Both the position numbers and the translations under genes were made by a program. The notes under the pieces are model-generated. The model worked only from the letters and a program-made list of their open reading frames with translations. It did not search any database and was not told the DNA's origin. A stretch of 20,519 nt of DNA from a virus: positions 1 to 20,519 of IMG/VR virus record IMGVR_UViG_3300031539_000390. One strand, 5' to 3'. Positions 1,471-20,519 of the stretch are shown one piece after another; the stretch's first letter is position 1, and each line of letters starts with the position of its first letter.

Positions 1471-1767
1471 ATGAAAAAATTACAACTAAAACAAATTATT
1501 AAAGAAGAAATTAAAAAGGTTTTAAAAGAAGAAAAAATAAGTCAATATGGTACCCATTCTAATGGACGCTTGTATTTTCAAATTGGAAATGATTTTTATA
1601 AGATTGATCACTTCTCAGGTGGTACTGCAATTAGAAAAGCAAAACAGATACCAACAGGATTTAGAAAACAAAATAAACCAGATTTACAATTTGCCAACCA
1701 AATTATTAAAAGTATTAAAAATAAAAAAAATGATATGGGCAGTTGGTATAGTCTTTCATACTCTTAA
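1471..1767 (+). CDS. Small protein with the MKK..LK.IIKEEI leader
   Basis: This is a 98-residue basic protein. Residues 1-20 (MKKLQLKQIIKEEIKKVLKE) form a predicted amphipathic helix nearly identical to the start of the proteins at 15886, 16170 and, less closely, 16527. The remainder (SQYGTHSNGRLYFQIGNDF onwards) is an unrelated small domain with aromatic and Lys-rich stretches, and no known family was recognised. The leader carries IKE at 10-12 and LKE at 18-20, which fit the (L/I)-x-E rule of T4-type prohead protease sites. Capsid targeting is therefore a reasonable inference but is not shown. It sits between two paralogous structural genes like an inserted extra gene. AAGGAAA lies just upstream of the ATG. 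Confidence 0.7.
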   Translation: MKKLQLKQIIKEEIKKVLKEEKISQYGTHSNGRLYFQIGNDFYKIDHFSGGTAIRKAKQIPTGFRKQNKPDLQFANQIIKSIKNKKNDMGSWYSLSYS

Positions 1768-2620: not shown

Positions 2621-2962
2621 ATGAATATAAAATTAAAAACATTATTAACTGAAAAAATGAAAAATATAAGAAAAAGATATAAATTTTCAGGTCTATCAAA
2701 AGATACAGACGGAGACTTCGCTGTTTCAGTTAGTGAGGGATTTACAAATGTCGTAGATTCTCAATATCAACCATTTGTGACATTGGAATTACAAACATAC
2801 ACTTTAGCGCATATGGGCATTCCACTAAAAAATCAAAATGATGCATCCAGTAGTAAAATGATATCAGAGTTTATAGACGCAGCAGATAAATTTAATAAAG
2901 ATTTAATTAAAATTAAAAAACGATATGGATTATTAGATGATATAGAATTATCATCAAAATGA
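2621..2962 (+). CDS. Small hypothetical protein
   Basis: This 113-residue protein is not recognised. The N-terminus (MNIKLKTLLTEKMKNIRKRYK) is a basic amphipathic stretch containing LTE at residues 9-11. It vaguely resembles the leaders of the MKKSELKK group but does not align residue for residue. The C-terminus is helical and charged. The ribosome-binding site is weak (AAGAAAATTAAA). It ends in TGA, one of only two TGA stops in the window. The same frame stays open for 16 more codons after the TGA (to TAA at 3011-3013), so the gene may have lost its last part through a nonsense change, or the TGA may be read through at low level. Confidence 0.6.
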   Translation: MNIKLKTLLTEKMKNIRKRYKFSGLSKDTDGDFAVSVSEGFTNVVDSQYQPFVTLELQTYTLAHMGIPLKNQNDASSSKMISEFIDAADKFNKDLIKIKKRYGLLDDIELSSK

Positions 2963-13261: not shown

Positions 13262-13702
13262 ATGATTTTATATAATTCACATGTAAGTGGTTCTTTAGAA
13301 GTAGATGAAAATGTATTTATTACAGGTATTCTCTATGCTTCTGAAAAACATTTTTATATTAACCACCCTACCGAGGAAGGTAAGAAACTGGTATATGGAA
13401 CTCTCGAGGGTCCCGAAAACGCAGTTTATTTACGCGGCAGGTTGAACGGTGATAATGTTATAGAATTACCAGACTATTGGACCAAGTTAGTTGATGAAAA
13501 AAGTATTACAGTTTTCTTTACTCCAATAGGTCGAGGTCAAATTTTATCTGTTGATTATATTAAAGATAATAAGATATTTATTAAAAAATCATTACTGACA
13601 CCATTTGGAAAAATATACTGTAATTATTTAATATTTGGTGAAAGAAAAGATATTCCAAAACTGAAGACAAAGATAGACCCAAAAAATATAGTGGATGTAT
13701 AA
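13262..13702 (+). CDS. Small fibre-tip-like protein
   Basis: This 146-residue protein begins with a beta-type repeat (HVSGSLEVDENVFITGIL), followed by KHFYINHPTEEGKKLVYGTL and EGPENAVYLRGRL (residues ~29-61), then LPDYWTKL and FTPIGRGQ. The K-x-F-x-I-x-HP ... LEGPE-x2-VY-x-RG ... LPDY series is a domain I recognise from C-terminal parts of many phage and prophage fibre proteins, where it usually follows a longer fibre. Here it is a stand-alone small gene, so it may cap or trimerise one of the upstream fibres. AGAGGAAATAAATG gives a strong start. The gene overlaps the next one by 8 bases if that begins at 13695. Confidence 0.7.
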   Translation: MILYNSHVSGSLEVDENVFITGILYASEKHFYINHPTEEGKKLVYGTLEGPENAVYLRGRLNGDNVIELPDYWTKLVDEKSITVFFTPIGRGQILSVDYIKDNKIFIKKSLLTPFGKIYCNYLIFGERKDIPKLKTKIDPKNIVDV

Positions 13703-15884
13703 AATGAGCATAATGGATTTATCAGTATACATAGCAGAACAAATAATTATTGATGAAATAATGCGCAGTGATATGCCCCAAATAAAAGGTAAAGATTATC
13801 CTGACGTATTAAAAATATTCAAAGAGTATGGTGTTCCTTATAGACTTCAAAATATGAACATCGATGATTTGTTTCCACTTCAAAAAGATTTTATTCAATC
13901 TAAAGTTGATAATATTGTGAATACAATGAATACAGACAAGGATATGCAACCTATATTTATATCATCTGATTATTATATTATTGATGGTCACCACCGTTGG
14001 TTGGCTAATAAACACATTAAAAATCCAATAATGAAAGTTATCAAAGTTGGTTATCCAAAGAATGCAGCACTAAAATTATTTGACAAGTTAGATGAAAAAT
14101 TAAATGAAGCAGTTAGTAAGATAACAAAAACGGTTGTTATTTTCCCAGGTAGATTTCAGCCTTTCCACCGTGGTCATTATTATTCATATAATGATTTAGT
14201 TAGTAAGTTTGGAAAAAATAATATTTATATTGCTTCTTCAAATGTGACCGGTGGAGATAAATCTCCATTTACATTCCAAGATAAGAAAACTATTATTACT
14301 AAATTATTTGGTATTCCTGGAACTAAAGTTGTTCAAGTAAAAAATCCATATAGACCCGAAGAAATATTAAAAACATTTGACCCAAAGACAACTGCAGTTA
14401 TTGTAGCAGTTGGTGAAAAAGATGCAAATAGATTAGGTGGTAAATATTATGTCAAATATAAAGGAAGAGTAGATGAAGGTTATTTAGATAAAGGATATGT
14501 ATATATTGTTCCTCAATTACAACTAAAGATACAAGGTAAAACAATTTCAGGAACAGAAGTTAGAAATAATTTTTCTAAAGAATTATTTAAAGGATTATAT
14601 CCTAAATACGATGACGCAATCTATAATGCAATGAAACAAAAATTATCAGAAGCATTAATATTAGAAGGTGGTGCGTATGGACATTTGACCCATCCATTTG
14701 AAGATATGGATTTGACATTTGGTGATTTGAAAACAATGATAAGTTCTGCATTAGAAGGTAAGTTAGACTTGACACAAGAAAAAACAGATGGTCAAAATCT
14801 TATGTTTTCTTGGATAGATGGAAAATTAAAAGTTGCAAGAAATGCATCTCATACTAAAAACTTTGGTAAGGGTGCATTAGATATATCTGGTGTTTCAAGT
14901 ATGTTTTCGGGTAGAGGGGAAATACAAACTGCATTTACAGAAGCAGCAAAAGATTTAGAAGCAGCAGTTTCAAAATTATCTCAAAAACAAAAAGATAAGA
15001 TATTTGCTAATGGTAAAAAGTTTATGAGTGTAGAAGTAATATATCCTCAAACAACAAATGTAATACCTTATGATTTTTCTATGTTAGTATTTCACGGAAC
15101 ATTTGAGTATGACGAAAACGGAAATAAAATAGGTGCAGATAAAACCGATGCATCAATTTTAGCAGGAATGATTAAACAAGTAAATGCAGACGTTCAAAAT
15201 ACATTTCAAATTAGAGCACCAAATAATTTGAAATTACCTAAAGTTCAAAACTTTTCATCTCAAAAATCTTATTTTTTCAGTAAATTGAATAAATTACAAA
15301 ATGAATTTAAATTAAAAGATAGTGATACTGTTCTTATGTATCACCAGACTTGGTGGGAAAACTTTGTTTCTAAACAAGCCAAGTCTATGAAATATGGAAT
15401 ACCAAATGACGTCTTGGTAGATTTAACAAAACGTTGGGCATATAATAATAAATCATATAAGATAAATGATATTAAAAAGAGAATTGATAATGATACATTT
15501 AGAACTTGGGTCGATAGTTTTGATAAAGGTTCTTACACTCAACAATTCAAAGATAATATTAAACCTTTTGAATTATTATTCTTGGAATTAGGAGCACAAG
15601 TATTAAAGAATATAAATGTATTTTTGGCTGTAAATCCAAATGATTCAATACAGAAAATGAAAACTTCGGTTGATAAAGCAATAAAAGATATTGAAAGTTC
15701 AAATGATGTAAATGCTATGGCTAAAATGAAAGCACAATTGGAAAGACTTAATTCTATAGGTGGTATAGATGCAGTCATACCTTCAGAAGGAATAACATTT
15801 ATGTTCAATGATAAACTATACAAATTTACAGGAACATTCGCACCAATTAATTCACTATTAGGAATATTAAAATATGGGAACTAA
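13695..15884 (+). CDS. ParB-like / HxGH nucleotidyltransferase / ATP-dependent ligase-like fusion enzyme
   Basis: This 729-residue protein has three domains. Residues ~1-135 are ParB/sulfiredoxin-like (IIDGHHRWLAN, 97-102 core). Residues ~145-310 are an NMNAT/cytidylyltransferase-type fold with GRFQPFHRGH at 152-161 and ISGTEVR at 284-290, as in NadR and NadM enzymes that join a nucleotide to a phosphate compound. Residues ~325-729 look like a covalent nucleotidyltransferase (RNA/DNA ligase fold): motif I EKTDG with Lys363, motif III SVEVIYP (Glu447), motif IV EGITF (Glu698), motif V KFTG (Lys710). All key residues appear intact. The substrate is unknown; NAD metabolism, RNA end repair or nucleotide modification are possible. 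The start is uncertain: ATGs at 13695, 13704 and 13713, none with a good Shine-Dalgarno; 13704 follows the upstream stop directly. Confidence 0.85.
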   Translation: MYKMSIMDLSVYIAEQIIIDEIMRSDMPQIKGKDYPDVLKIFKEYGVPYRLQNMNIDDLFPLQKDFIQSKVDNIVNTMNTDKDMQPIFISSDYYIIDGHHRWLANKHIKNPIMKVIKVGYPKNAALKLFDKLDEKLNEAVSKITKTVVIFPGRFQPFHRGHYYSYNDLVSKFGKNNIYIASSNVTGGDKSPFTFQDKKTIITKLFGIPGTKVVQVKNPYRPEEILKTFDPKTTAVIVAVGEKDANRLGGKYYVKYKGRVDEGYLDKGYVYIVPQLQLKIQGKTISGTEVRNNFSKELFKGLYPKYDDAIYNAMKQKLSEALILEGGAYGHLTHPFEDMDLTFGDLKTMISSALEGKLDLTQEKTDGQNLMFSWIDGKLKVARNASHTKNFGKGALDISGVSSMFSGRGEIQTAFTEAAKDLEAAVSKLSQKQKDKIFANGKKFMSVEVIYPQTTNVIPYDFSMLVFHGTFEYDENGNKIGADKTDASILAGMIKQVNADVQNTFQIRAPNNLKLPKVQNFSSQKSYFFSKLNKLQNEFKLKDSDTVLMYHQTWWENFVSKQAKSMKYGIPNDVLVDLTKRWAYNNKSYKINDIKKRIDNDTFRTWVDSFDKGSYTQQFKDNIKPFELLFLELGAQVLKNINVFLAVNPNDSIQKMKTSVDKAIKDIESSNDVNAMAKMKAQLERLNSIGGIDAVIPSEGITFMFNDKLYKFTGTFAPINSLLGILKYGN

Positions 15885-15885
15885 G

Positions 15886-16155
15886 ATGAAAAAATCAGAA
15901 TTAAAAAAAATAATAAAAGAAGAAATAACAAATTTCCTAACAGAAGAATCTCACAATGACCATTCTCTTATGAGATTTTACAATATAACAATGAAAGCTA
16001 GCTCAAGTAGTGAAGCAACAAGACTTATTAATTCACGAACAGATAAGATAACAAATAGAGCTAAATTACAATCGTGGATAGATGTTTTAGAAGATGAAAA
16101 TTATCATACTGAAGCTGAATATGCATACAATAAATTAAAAACATTAAAACATTAA
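15886..16155 (+). CDS. Small protein with the MKKSELKKIIKEEI leader (1 of 3 in tandem)
   Basis: This 89-residue protein is not recognised as a family. An in-frame ATG exists at 15874, but the start at 15886 is chosen because translation from it gives exactly the leader MKKSELKKIIKEEITNFLTE shared with neighbours, and GGGAA lies suitably upstream. The leader has IKE at 10-12 and LTE at 18-20. The rest is polar and helical (RFYNITMKASSSSEATRL, then AKLQSWIDVLEDENYHTEAE) and looks like a small helical hairpin. It follows the fusion-enzyme stop by one base, so it is coupled to it. A packaged internal head protein is a possible role by inference from the leader. Confidence 0.7.
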   Translation: MKKSELKKIIKEEITNFLTEESHNDHSLMRFYNITMKASSSSEATRLINSRTDKITNRAKLQSWIDVLEDENYHTEAEYAYNKLKTLKH

Positions 16156-16169
16156 TAGAAAGAACTACA

Positions 16170-16517
16170 ATGAAAAAATCTGAATTAAAGAAAATTATCA
16201 AAGAAGAAATTAAAAATATTTTAAAAGAAGATTTTGATAATTCAATATACATTAAAGGAAAAGACTTAAAACGTATTGGTTGGATAGTTATTAATAAACG
16301 AAAAAATGATGGTCGTCCTTTATACACATTAGAAAGTGGTGATGATAAATCTTGGGGTGCAACTTATAGAATGGGAACATCAAAACATTCAGAAAGCAGT
16401 TCTTTGTTTTATACTATTCCTATAAAGGTAGAAGGAACTAATAGATTTAGAATGCTAACAGATGACGAAAAATGGTCACGTGCATATGCATATGAAGAAA
16501 TTGAAATTAAAAAATAA
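16170..16517 (+). CDS. Small protein with the MKKSELKKIIKEEI leader (2 of 3 in tandem)
   Basis: This 115-residue protein has leader residues 1-20 identical in pattern to the previous gene (IKE at 10-12, LKE at 18-20). The codons differ at several synonymous positions (for example TCT for TCA and AAG for AAA), so the peptide and not just the DNA is conserved. The body is a compact beta-rich domain with many aromatic residues (GWIVINKRKNDGRPLYTLES, SWGATYRMG, SLFYTIPIKVEG) and a charged end EEIEIKK. Function is unknown. The Shine-Dalgarno is weak (AGAAAGAA). Confidence 0.7.
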   Translation: MKKSELKKIIKEEIKNILKEDFDNSIYIKGKDLKRIGWIVINKRKNDGRPLYTLESGDDKSWGATYRMGTSKHSESSSLFYTIPIKVEGTNRFRMLTDDEKWSRAYAYEEIEIKK

Positions 16518-16526
16518 GGAACTTAA

Positions 16527-16940
16527 ATGAAAAAATCAGAATATAAAAGAATATTAAAAGAAGAACTTGGTTTAGTATTACCAGACGGAACTATAAACGG
16601 TGACCCAAAAGGAAAAGAAAAAGCAACTACTAAAAAATACAAACAAAAAGAAAAGAATATTACCGAAGCAACAAGCAATGTAATATATGCTGGTATTAAT
16701 TTTCTTGTTGTAGTTAAAATTAAAGAATCAGGTGGATATATTCAACTAATTCCGCGCACAACAAAGGATATAGATGTATTAGATACATATGGAAGAGAAC
16801 GAGCAACTATGTTTTTAGAAACTAAGTTAAAACAACAGTTGGGTTTTCGAGTATGGTATTCAGGCGATGGGTCAGCAGGGTTGAACTTCAGATTTAGTAT
16901 TATTAATATTGAAGAACTTTTAAAAAGTAAAATAAAATAG
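16527..16940 (+). CDS. Small protein with divergent MKKSE-type leader (3 of 3 in tandem)
   Basis: This 137-residue protein starts MKKSEYKRILKEELGLVLPD, a diverged copy of the shared leader: LKE is kept at 10-12, but the second site has become LPD. A Lys-rich linker follows (residues ~26-44) containing ITE at 45-47, directly before a small alpha/beta domain (NVIYAGINFLVVVKIKE, then RVWYSGDGSAGLNF). If the leader is a removable targeting peptide, cleavage could occur at ITE just before the folded part. No family was recognised. AAGGAACTTAAATG supports the start. It ends in TAG, the only TAG stop in the window, which overlaps the next gene's Shine-Dalgarno. Confidence 0.7.
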   Translation: MKKSEYKRILKEELGLVLPDGTINGDPKGKEKATTKKYKQKEKNITEATSNVIYAGINFLVVVKIKESGGYIQLIPRTTKDIDVLDTYGRERATMFLETKLKQQLGFRVWYSGDGSAGLNFRFSIINIEELLKSKIK

Positions 16941-16948: not shown

Positions 16949-17635
16949 ATGGCTCAATTTACAAGAAGTCAATTCGATAATATGTCAAAGGACGAAAAAG
17001 ATGAATTGATGAAGAAAAAATCGGATAGACCCAGTGCAAGACCTATGGGTGATATTTATCCACAGACTATAAAAAGAATATTAGAAGGAGAAACACCAAA
17101 GATTACTTTGTCAATGTATGATAGAGAAAGTACAATGACAGATGAAGAAAAACAAGAACGTTTAGACGAAGCAACAGAAAGAGAAAATAGACATAAACTA
17201 TTTGCTGATTTACGAAAAGAAACAAATCCAACATTCTGTCCTAAATGCGGTAAGTTTATGAGTGACAGATTAGATGCTAAGTTTTTTGTAATAAGAAAAA
17301 CTTGCTATACCTGTGTTATCAAATATGAACGTAAAATACAAGATGCTGGTCTATGGAGACAATACGAAGATAAGATTATGACTGATAATAAATTATCATT
17401 TTTGAGAGATGTAAAAGAAGAGGTTGAAGATTATTTAAATGGTGGTCTCAAAAGAGAATATAAATACGTGACAGAAGAAGGTAAAATTGAAAAATGGACT
17501 AACGATGCTTATGATGAAACAAAAGTATTTTTAGAAAATACATTGAAAGAGATAACTACTATACAAGAAGATTTATCTAGTTATTTAAATGAACTAAATG
17601 AGGTATTGAAAAATGACGTCGCAATCAGCGCCTAA
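16949..17635 (+). CDS. Zinc-ribbon protein upstream of terminase; small-terminase candidate
   Basis: This 228-residue, highly charged, mostly helical protein has a central zinc-binding pair, Cys97-x2-Cys100 (FCPKCGK) and Cys119-x2-Cys122 (TCYTC). The flanks are Glu/Lys-rich helices, with a coiled-coil-like C-terminus (ENTLKEITTIQEDLSSYLNE). It overlaps the start of the large terminase gene by 23 bases, so the two are translationally linked. Small terminase subunits usually sit exactly here and bind DNA through a helical N-terminus and a coiled-coil oligomerisation core. A zinc ribbon is not a typical T4 gp16 feature, so that role is inference from position. A DNA-binding late regulator is an alternative. 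Confidence 0.75.
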   Translation: MAQFTRSQFDNMSKDEKDELMKKKSDRPSARPMGDIYPQTIKRILEGETPKITLSMYDRESTMTDEEKQERLDEATERENRHKLFADLRKETNPTFCPKCGKFMSDRLDAKFFVIRKTCYTCVIKYERKIQDAGLWRQYEDKIMTDNKLSFLRDVKEEVEDYLNGGLKREYKYVTEEGKIEKWTNDAYDETKVFLENTLKEITTIQEDLSSYLNELNEVLKNDVAISA

Positions 17636-19223
17636 TTTACGTGACATAATAAAAGAAGAATATTCAAAGTGTGTTAAGGACCCAATATACTTTATCAAAA
17701 GATACTGTATAATCCAACATCCTATTCGTGGTAAAATACCATTTATATTATACGGGTTTCAAGAAAACATTTTAGCAGCATTCCTAAAGTTTGATAGAAA
17801 TATAATTTTGAAAAATAGACAAATGGGTCTATCAACATTAGCTTCGGCCTATGCACTTTGGTTAATGACTTTCTTTGATGATAAGAATATATTAGTTATA
17901 GCAACAAAACAAGATGTTGCAAAGAATATTATTTCTAAGGTTAGAATTATGCATAATCTATTACCAAGTTGGATGAAACGTAAATGTACAGAAGACAATA
18001 AATTAGGATTACAATATAACAATGGTTCAAAGATATATGCTAGCACCTCGGCAGGAGACGCCGGCCGTTCAGAAGCTGTATCTTTACTTATATTAGATGA
18101 GGCTGCATTTATTCCAGGAATGGAAGAACTATGGGGAGCATTACAACCTACACTTTCTACAGGTGGTGATATTATTGTATTATCAACTCCTAATGGTGTT
18201 GGTAATTGGTATCACGAAACATTTGTAAAAGCAGAAGAAGGAAAGAATAATTTTTATCCTATTACTCTTCACTGGACATTACACCCCGAGAAAGACCAAG
18301 ACTGGAGAGATTTACAAGACATAGAATTAGGACCAAGATTAGCAAAACAAGAGTGCGATGGTTCATTCTTAGCATCTGGTGATACTGTTATTGCCGGTGA
18401 ATTATTAGAATGGTATAAACAAACTCACGTTATGGAACCTATAGAAAAAACAGGATTTGATAGAAATGTTTGGATATGGGAATATCCTGATTATACGAAA
18501 TCTTATATGTTAGTATCTGACGTTGCAAGAGGAGATGGGAAGGATTATTCAACATTCCATATCTTAGAACTTGAAACACTAAATCAAGTTGCTGAGTATC
18601 AGGGAAAACCTGGAACACAACAGTTTGGAGATTTATGTGTTGAATATGGAACAAAGTATAATGACGCATTAATAGTTATGGAGAATGCTACGATTGGTTG
18701 GGCTGCATTACAAAGAATATTAGATAGAAGTTATAAGAATGTATTTTATAATGAAAATAAAAGTAATATTATTGATGATAAGGTTATGACTAAATATGTT
18801 GGTAATATGATTAAGATGGAAAAGAAATCAGTTCCTGGATTTACAACTTCTGTAAAATCAAGACCATTAATAATTTCAAAGATGGAACAATATTTTAATG
18901 AAAGAAGTGTAATAGTTAGATCGACAAGATTAATAAATGAACTATTTACTTTTATTTGGAATGCAGGGAAAGCAGAAGCAGCAACTTCAAACTACAATGA
19001 TGACTTAGTAATGGCATATGCAATTGGTTTATGGGTTAGAGATACCGCGCTTAGGTTGAGAGAACAATCAAAAGAATTGACTCGAGCAACTTTAGACGGA
19101 TTTAGAGTAGAAAAAACTGCAGTCAAATCAACTCCATTTTTTATTGGTGGTGCATTACAAAAGGATCCATACAAAATAAGTGTAGGAAAATCAGAGAACT
19201 GGGACACAAGAGAACTATTATGA
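17613..19223 (+). CDS. terL: Terminase large subunit (T4 gp17 type)
   Basis: This 536-residue protein is the ATP-driven DNA packaging motor and headful nuclease, acting at the portal. The ATPase domain shows an adenine-motif Gln (Gln50 in YGFQENI), a variant Walker A KNRQMGLST (67-75), Walker B LLILDEAAF (Asp162, Glu163) and the coupling motif VLSTPNG. The RNase-H-like nuclease domain shows acidic residues in MLVSDVARGDG (Asp303), VMENATIGW (Glu357) and YNDDLVMA (Asp463/Asp464). Length is somewhat shorter than T4 gp17 (610). The N-terminal segment EYSKCVKDPIYFIKRY is characteristic of T4-like terminases. Its stop TGA overlaps the ATG of the HD gene (ATGA), so expression is coupled. Confidence 0.97.
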   Translation: MTSQSAPNLRDIIKEEYSKCVKDPIYFIKRYCIIQHPIRGKIPFILYGFQENILAAFLKFDRNIILKNRQMGLSTLASAYALWLMTFFDDKNILVIATKQDVAKNIISKVRIMHNLLPSWMKRKCTEDNKLGLQYNNGSKIYASTSAGDAGRSEAVSLLILDEAAFIPGMEELWGALQPTLSTGGDIIVLSTPNGVGNWYHETFVKAEEGKNNFYPITLHWTLHPEKDQDWRDLQDIELGPRLAKQECDGSFLASGDTVIAGELLEWYKQTHVMEPIEKTGFDRNVWIWEYPDYTKSYMLVSDVARGDGKDYSTFHILELETLNQVAEYQGKPGTQQFGDLCVEYGTKYNDALIVMENATIGWAALQRILDRSYKNVFYNENKSNIIDDKVMTKYVGNMIKMEKKSVPGFTTSVKSRPLIISKMEQYFNERSVIVRSTRLINELFTFIWNAGKAEAATSNYNDDLVMAYAIGLWVRDTALRLREQSKELTRATLDGFRVEKTAVKSTPFFIGGALQKDPYKISVGKSENWDTRELL

Positions 19224-19711
19224 AAATAAACGAATTATCTAAAATAGAGAAAGCAATCGATTTAGCCCAAGACGTCCATTCAGGTCAATATAGAAAGGTA
19301 AGCAAAAAACCTTATATCATTCATCCATTCAGAGCATATCAAAGAGCAAGAGCAATGGGTTTATCTGATGATGTTCAAATCATAGCAGTTCTACACGATA
19401 CATACGAAGATGCTAAAAATAAAGCGTATGTTGCAGATAAAATTAAATCTATGTATGGAAATATAATCTGGAAATATATTTTATTATTATCTCACGATAA
19501 AGGTACAGATTACAATACTTACATATTATCACTGGCAAAGAAGAGTAATGTAGCCCTACAAGTCAAATTAATCGATATAATTGAGAACCTGTTAGATAAT
19601 GCGAGCCCAAAGCAAAAAGCCAAGTATTTATCTGGTTTGCTATATTTATTAAATAATAAGGTTAAAATCGATAATAAAATTGTGTCTCAAATAAAAAGTT
19701 TGACACAATAA
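19220..19711 (+). CDS. SpoT/MESH1-like HD hydrolase (probable small alarmone hydrolase)
   Basis: This 163-residue single-domain protein matches the HD hydrolase domain of Rel/SpoT and MESH1 enzymes, which remove the 3' pyrophosphate from (p)ppGpp. It has VHSGQYRK (Arg25), IIHP (His35), LHDTYED (His59, Asp60, Glu63, Asp64) and VKLIDIIENL (Asp119, Asn123). The spacing His35-His59 (24) and Asp119-Asn123 (4) equals that of Rel enzymes, so the catalytic set appears complete. There is no synthetase domain. The ATG overlaps the terminase stop, and the portal gene follows 22 bases later. A phage use could be to keep (p)ppGpp low during infection. Other HD substrates, such as NADPH for MESH1, are possible. 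Confidence 0.87.
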   Translation: MKINELSKIEKAIDLAQDVHSGQYRKVSKKPYIIHPFRAYQRARAMGLSDDVQIIAVLHDTYEDAKNKAYVADKIKSMYGNIIWKYILLLSHDKGTDYNTYILSLAKKSNVALQVKLIDIIENLLDNASPKQKAKYLSGLLYLLNNKVKIDNKIVSQIKSLTQ

Positions 19712-19733: not shown

Positions 19734-20519
19734 ATGGCAACATTGACAGAAAATGTATTCAAAACGCTTAAACGTTTATTCTCAAACGATATTATAGTTA
19801 GAAGAGTTGGTGATAAAAAGTTTAAAGTTATAGATACATACAACACTCAAGCAGTTGGTATGTTAGCAACAAATTACTTGGGTCGAAATTATAGTGTATT
19901 AAGATATAATACAACTAATTATGGATATAATCAATCTCTTTCAATCTTATCTCAAAGATTAATGCTATTTAGAGAATATGAATTGATGGATCAGGATCCA
20001 ATTATAGCATCCGCATTAGATTTATATGCAGAAGAAGCAACAGTAAAAAATGAATTTGGAGATATTTTAACTGTAAAATCTGGTGATAATGAAATAAAAG
20101 ATGTTTTAGATAACTTATTTTATGATATTTTAAATATAGATTTTAATTTGCTTCATTGGACAAGAAACCTTGTAAAATATGGTGATATGTTTATGAAGTT
20201 AGATTTAGCCGAAAAAATCGGTATTGTAGGTGTAATTCCTATCTCTCCTTATGTTGTTGAAAGACATGAAGGTCTAAACCCACATAACCCATCAGAAGTA
20301 AAATACAAAATAGATGGTCCAATCCTTCAAGGTATGTATGAGAACTACGAAATAGCTCATTTTAGAATGTTGAGTGACTCGAACTTTTTACCGTATGGTA
20401 AGAGTATGATTGAAGCAGCAAGAAGAATTTGGAAACAACTTACATTGATGGAAGATGCAATGTTGATACACAGAATAATGAGAGCACCTCAAAAAAGAAT
20501 ATTCAATATTGATGTTGGT
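19734..20519 (+). CDS. Portal protein (T4 gp20 type), 5' part
   Basis: The frame runs from ATG at 19734 to the window edge without a stop: 262 residues, about half of T4 gp20 (524). Portal rings form the head vertex through which TerL packages DNA and to which the neck attaches. Segments matching T4-type portals include MDQDPIIASALDLYAEEAT, LVKYGDMFMKL, the FRMLSDSNFLPYGKSMIEAARR region, and LTLMEDAMLIHRIMRAPQKRIF followed by NIDVG at the right edge. AAAGAGG lies 5 bases before the ATG. The order TerL, one small enzyme gene, portal is a compact packaging module; prohead protease and major capsid genes would be expected further right. Confidence 0.95.
   Translation, partial: MATLTENVFKTLKRLFSNDIIVRRVGDKKFKVIDTYNTQAVGMLATNYLGRNYSVLRYNTTNYGYNQSLSILSQRLMLFREYELMDQDPIIASALDLYAEEATVKNEFGDILTVKSGDNEIKDVLDNLFYDILNIDFNLLHWTRNLVKYGDMFMKLDLAEKIGIVGVIPISPYVVERHEGLNPHNPSEVKYKIDGPILQGMYENYEIAHFRMLSDSNFLPYGKSMIEAARRIWKQLTLMEDAMLIHRIMRAPQKRIFNIDVG

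Follow-up and report, generated by a model that had tools for sequence, protein, structure and literature searches.

In phage T4 the internal proteins IPI, IPII and IPIII are otherwise unrelated small proteins that begin with one short N-terminal peptide, the capsid-targeting sequence (CTS), ending at an [LI]-x-E site that is cut by the protease gp21 (cleavage motif L/I-x-E; PMC9026906). The peptide reads MKTYQEFIAE|A in IPII and IPIII and ends ...STITE|A in IPI; the leader is all that these proteins share, and behind it stand anti-restriction proteins of diverse kinds (PMC3012670, PMC12373910). T4 Alt, a packaged ADP-ribosyltransferase, likewise places its enzyme behind a short N-terminal peptide, MELITELFDE|D. 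That a single tag can serve many payloads and be removed by gp21 is already known from T-even phages. Injected T4 internal proteins block host restriction enzymes, and few such proteins have known functions. In giant phages of the phiKZ and SPN3US type the prohead protease likewise trims many different head and ejected proteins, removing propeptides that end in Glu (S/A-x-E in phiKZ; PMC9026906), but these are not described as one common leader on many payloads, and the cleavage motif differs. Here I report an N-terminal leader shared by four small proteins of a phage represented by IMG/VR virus record IMGVR_UViG_3300031539_000390 (20,519 bases, hereafter the window), which quite probably works like the T4 CTS.

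The four genes were first picked out by a sequence-only reading of the window, and the shared leader is present on each of them. Its common form is MKKSELKKIIKEEI…L-x-E, and the genes and their leaders, delimited from the sequence, are as follows:

1471..1767, + strand: leader-tagged small protein of 98 residues, MKKLQLKQIIKEEIKKVLKE|EKISQYG..., with a near-identical homologue in contig L015
1471..1530, + strand: leader of this protein, 20 codons long and expected to be cut behind E20 (L-K-E)
15886..16155, + strand: leader-tagged small protein of 89 residues, MKKSELKKIIKEEITNFLTE|ESHND...
15886..15945, + strand: leader of this protein, 20 codons long and expected to be cut behind E20 (L-T-E)
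16170..16517, + strand: leader-tagged small protein of 115 residues, MKKSELKKIIKEEIKNILKE|DFDNS...
16170..16229, + strand: leader of this protein, 20 codons long and expected to be cut behind E20 (L-K-E)
16527..16940, + strand: leader-tagged protein of 137 residues, leader MKKSEYKRILKEELGLVLPD, with L-P-D at residues 18-20 and an I45-T46-E47|A48 site, identified also by comparison with contig L056
16527..16667, + strand: propeptide predicted for this protein, 47 codons long and ending I-T-E|A

As that reading had noted, (I/L)-K-E falls at residues 10-12 in all four proteins and L-(K/T)-E at residues 18-20 in three, the 16527 protein having L-P-D there. Its claim that codons vary synonymously under selection on the peptide also holds, in that the 15886 and 16170 genes differ in five of their first 14 codons, every difference being synonymous. 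A regular expression for the leader matches four times in the window and not once in 300 order-3 Markov resamples of it, which rules out chance as the source of the similarity. The longest open reading frame (ORF) of the first clustered gene begins at 15874 (MGTKMKKSEL...), and relatives favour the start at 15886.

A degenerate 42-base pattern for M-K-K-x-x-L-K-x-I-I-K-E-E-I recovered 85 loci from IMG/VR, whereas the same codons permuted recovered none. These loci contain 188 leader ORFs, which blastp sorts into 110 payload clusters (clusters rather than ORFs were counted because some leader contigs are near-duplicates), and the proposal that the proteins behind the leader are unrelated is borne out. 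A short N-terminal peptide common to otherwise unrelated small proteins, as in the T4 CTS, is what was found. It differs from the T4 peptide in sequence and length, running to 20 residues (MKKSELKQIIKEEI.KVLNE). On unrelated payloads, 28 distinct 42-nucleotide sequences all translate to the same peptide, MKKSELKQIIKEEI, and selection therefore acts on the peptide. A relaxed pattern matched 1-10 times per record in 29 large leader-bearing records, whereas 10 other viral records gave no match and neither did the reversed pattern; an Arg version of the leader pattern found a single locus. When the 20-residue leader alone was searched by tblastn against phage records there was no match, probably owing to the low-complexity filter. 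In 257 Gb of bacterial genomes the leader pattern matched at just two loci, which belong to a single bin and lie on contigs with phage-like genes. This bacterial bin, CAJQGZ01 (2.1 Mb), has its leader genes (L097 and L098) on contigs that also carry endolysin and CobS-like genes, and so probably includes phage contigs. I found no description of the leader in the open-access literature, which is weak evidence of absence.

Conservation along the leader was measured on 107 cluster representatives in register, positions 15-20 lying outside the scan pattern. Residues 2-14 each carry about 2-3.5 bits of information and residues 15-17 and 19 carry 0.7-1.5; the value rises to 1.9 at residue 18 (L in 78 of 107) and at residue 20 (E in 79 of 107), and falls to about zero past residue 21. 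An [LI]xE ends precisely at residue 20 in 73 of the 107; the background in other parts of these proteins is 1.0%, and leaders outside the scan pattern show the motif at residue 20 in 31 of 48 cases. Thus the peptide ends at [LI]-x-E, as the T4 CTS does; in the window this site lies at residues 18-20 in three of the four proteins and at 45-47 in the fourth. The sequence-only reading had left the cut at residue 12 or residue 20; residue 20 is the more likely and residue 12 the less likely. The fourth protein, that of 16527, is 95.7% identical to its L056 homologue as far as I-T-E(47) and 47.7% identical beyond. When Asp occupies the cleavage position of a T4 protein, processing is prevented and targeting is unaffected (PMC9026906), which fits the L-P-D of this protein being superseded by I-T-E|A.

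Different tags also occur in front of the same payload. A payload that starts [GS]KQVG.LYHFT (the KQVG payload) stands behind MKKSELKQIIKEEIRKVLNE| in L069 (MKKSELKQIIKEEIRKVLNE|SKQVG) and behind a close variant of this tag in L114, and behind MIKLIDLLNE|, MIKLIDLLSE|, MIKLLDILKEITE| or MENKNLKLIDLLNE| in L055, L087, L005 and L028. The junction has the form x-E|[GS]KQVG, and its Glu is invariant in all nine sequences with this payload. A second payload (IELNTSFLQSQ..., IELNTSFLQSQDDFERGG) follows the leader described above in L019, L029 and L084 and follows MDNFDLKKYLAE... in L114. In the L056 homologue of the 16170 protein an extra domain of 267 bp is inserted directly after leader residue 18. 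These junctions show that tags are exchanged at the predicted cut site. A further common N-terminus, M-NFDLKK(F/Y)LxEN, also ending at [LI]xE, was seen in gp76 and gp77 of Flavobacterium phage immuto (L090 17631-18931) and in L075, L083 and L114, sometimes with another LxE about 10 residues further on. I lean, by a small margin, towards a standardised and interchangeable packaging code in which two or three tag types (MKKSELKQIIKEEI...LxE, M-IKLIDLLxE and M-NFDLKKYLxE), each ending at a protease site, would load a large and rapidly swapped effector repertoire into the head.

Compared with Pfam, PHROGs, NCBIfam and PADLOC, the payloads received almost no annotation. Single profile matches with E between 1e-4 and 1e-2 were taken as noise, and only DUF6576 (8.7e-12) and Tox-ART-HYD1 were kept apart from it, the Pfam Tox-ART-HYD1 match of the KQVG payload lying below the cut-off. 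In an AlphaFold model of a KQVG payload protein (core predicted local distance difference test score, pLDDT, about 90) the leader forms a helix over residues 3-20 and the fold begins at residue 22. The modelled fold matches that of the tRNA 2'-phosphotransferase Tpt1 (Foldseek E 3.6e-4, Z up to 10.7) and of DarT (Z 8), so that the KQVG payload of L069, L114, L055, L087 and others has, as modelled, an ADP-ribosyltransferase fold. Its invariant columns, Y-H-x-T, S-x-T-R and E-x-E-E, are suggestive of catalytic activity. The arrangement resembles that of Alt, since relatives of the window phage place this predicted domain directly behind MIKLIDLLNE| or MKKSELKQIIKEEIRKVLNE|. Alt is 682 residues long, however, whereas the payload proteins here have 139-225, and the best matches here are to the Tpt1 and DarT folds; the likeness is one of kind and not an established homology. 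No homologue of this payload was found in isolated phages. A leader-tagged protein of 324 residues (L062 884-1855) with YHRTT...GKGVYFVYDNP looks ADP-ribosyltransferase-like by eye and has no Pfam hit. For the window's own 16170 protein the structure model is poor (pLDDT 45).

The window phage is T4-like, as its terminase and portal genes show:

17613..19223, + strand: terminase large subunit, T4-like, from Pfam, PHROG and identity to immuto
19734..20519, + strand: portal protein gp20, incomplete at the record end, from PHROG 213

The terminase, which matches Pfam Terminase_6N and the PHROG terminase, is 53% identical to that of immuto (NC_055915), 51% to that of Microcystis phage Mel-JY01 and about 30% to those of cyanophages. 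Leader phages that contain a terminase form a single T4-like group at 45-63% identity, and genes of the immuto-type head or its neighbouring modules occur in 36 of the 85 leader loci as against none of 11 control loci. Both complete relatives, immuto and Mel-JY01, have the gene order terminase, portal, gp21-type protease, capsid protein, and the head module should therefore follow the portal in the window phage. The bS21-encoding Bacteroidetes phages (PMC9723584) share this module of TerL, portal, prohead protease and capsid protein, and their hosts are Bacteroidetes as for immuto; unlike the present work, that study, as far as read, does not treat N-terminal tags.

A prohead protease and a major capsid protein, both expected under the sequence-only reading, are present in complete and larger relatives as gp21-type and gp23-type proteins. 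Peptidase_S77 (PF03420) occurs in 12 of the 29 large leader records and a terminase in 14; 12 of these 14 hold the protease, the other two ending 1.2 and 4 kb past the terminase, and four shorter leader contigs have it as well. A gp21-type protease is present in all 16 leader records chosen because they cover the head region. The N-termini of these proteases retain [LI]xE near residue 20, and the capsid proteins have a Q-L-V-x-E|[AS]-type site where T4 gp23 has F-L-T-E|A. The conserved site of the proteases fits a specificity of [LI]-x-E for the enzyme of this clade, and since P3 of the capsid-protein site is Val in most relatives, the enzyme may accept Val besides Leu or Ile. In immuto, [LI]xE falls within residues 5-24 in 15 of 20 head-cluster genes as against 12 of 47 early genes (p = 2e-4), both sets having been picked by hand, by position.

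Because the tag ends at the expected cut site of the head protease, the tagged proteins are probably head cargo delivered with the DNA. That the leader is a capsid-targeting propeptide working like the CTS of the T4 internal proteins, with payloads packed in the head and injected with the DNA, is thus my preferred explanation, and I hold it with good though not full confidence. It agrees with the sequence-only reading and draws comparative support from the T4-like phage, the gp21-type protease and gp23-type capsid protein of relatives, the end of conservation at L-x-E, the tag exchange and the ADP-ribosyltransferase-fold payload. The amphipathic N-terminal helix of about 20 residues would dock unrelated small precursors in the prohead core, and a gp21-type (S77) protease would cut after the Glu of the terminal L-x-E, at residue 20 or, in the 16527 protein, at residue 47 (I-T-E|A). 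The freed payload would stay inside the head among the DNA and enter the host along with the genome, where payloads, including the ADP-ribosyltransferase-fold family of relatives, would probably target host defence or metabolism soon after infection. For docking and cleavage the support is comparative; injection and effector action would follow from the T4 precedent (PMC3012670, PMC12373910) and from payload turnover.

Several observations weigh against this explanation. The leader is absent from Mel-JY01 and occurs just once in immuto. About one third of leaders do not have [LI]xE exactly at residues 18-20, and the conservation of E20 partly reflects common descent of the leader, which also means that a nominal binomial probability for the [LI]xE counts is not to be read at face value. 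A leader-like segment, NIQKLRNIIREEIKKILKEE, lies mid-protein in a product of 325 residues (L117 2305-3279), a position that a purely N-terminal tag does not predict. The window record stops short of both protease and capsid protein, ending within the gp20 portal gene, and the contigs of the closest relatives (L021, L033, L056 and L015) likewise end ahead of the protease, so that this enzyme is only inferred for the window phage. Finally, I found no isolate in the open-access literature with both the leader and virion proteomics. As to the internal L117 segment, it precedes a domain homologous to the payload of the window's 16170 protein and may mark a fusion or an internal cut site.

The strongest competing explanation accepts the capsid-targeting propeptide and holds that the cargo remains a head component, such as a core or scaffold filler or a DNA-associated head protein, with no action on the host. 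Some tagged proteins are indeed encoded downstream of the portal gene, in the region of the prohead core genes (L021 44-292; immuto gp72), some are strongly acidic (L049 10394-10756), and T4 IPIII is reported to contribute to head assembly as well (PMC9026906). The 110 payload clusters, their turnover between close relatives and the ADP-ribosyltransferase-fold payload nevertheless fit host-directed proteins better, and no common net charge or head-filler character was seen among the payloads; I regard a purely structural cargo as unlikely. Less probable still, and deserving little credence, is the idea that the leader, as an amphipathic helix, directs proteins to a place within the infected cell (a membrane, a replication site or a phage-built complex) and has no connection to the head. 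Its Lys/Glu-rich helix has the form used by many docking peptides, and in large genomes leader genes are also scattered away from the head genes, but localisation explains neither the end of conservation at L-x-E, nor the invariant junction Glu behind two different tags, nor the gp21-type protease in all relatives whose records cover the head region. That the shared N-termini are functionless remnants of recent gene duplication has next to no chance of being right, since, although tandem arrays of leader genes are common (L043, L058 and L117), the codon data contradict simple duplication: 28 different nucleotide sequences encode the same 14-residue peptide on unrelated payloads, and no non-synonymous change accompanies the five synonymous ones between 15886 and 16170.

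Set beside the T4 CTS, the putative capsid-targeting leader described here is new in its sequence, in its clade (immuto-like rather than T-even phages), in its scale (110 payload clusters from one pattern and up to about ten tagged genes per phage) and in the evidence of tag exchange at the cut; packaging is here a prediction from the genes. Should the tag indeed direct packaging, one simple sequence pattern picks out more than 100 proteins of uncultured phages as candidate head cargo, almost none of which has a known domain. The injected arsenal of such phages would then be readable straight from sequence and could be mined for new anti-defence and host-takeover proteins. The tag itself, short and portable, could be used to load proteins into these phages, and one could ask whether T4-like phages in general carry modular head cargo.

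Two further window genes have N-termini that recall the tags:

2621..2962, + strand: protein of 113 residues with a possible short second-type tag, MNIKLKTLLTE|K, a weak assignment by resemblance only to the MIKLIDLLNE| tags of relatives
13695..15884, + strand: NMNAT-like nucleotidyltransferase, upstream of the tagged cluster, with Y-I-A-E near a second Met as a possible tag

The Mel-JY01 homologue of this nucleotidyltransferase starts with the tag-like MGKLINILLSE|L, and the enzyme may therefore also be packaged in relatives. Between terminase and portal, at 19220-19711, lies an HD-domain phosphohydrolase (PHROG metal-dependent phosphohydrolase) whose N-terminus is without a clear tag. In the leader-bearing record G006 (L016, 49.9 kb) the terminase reads through 10 TGA codons and the protease through two, so that this phage has probably reassigned a stop codon while using the tag system described here.
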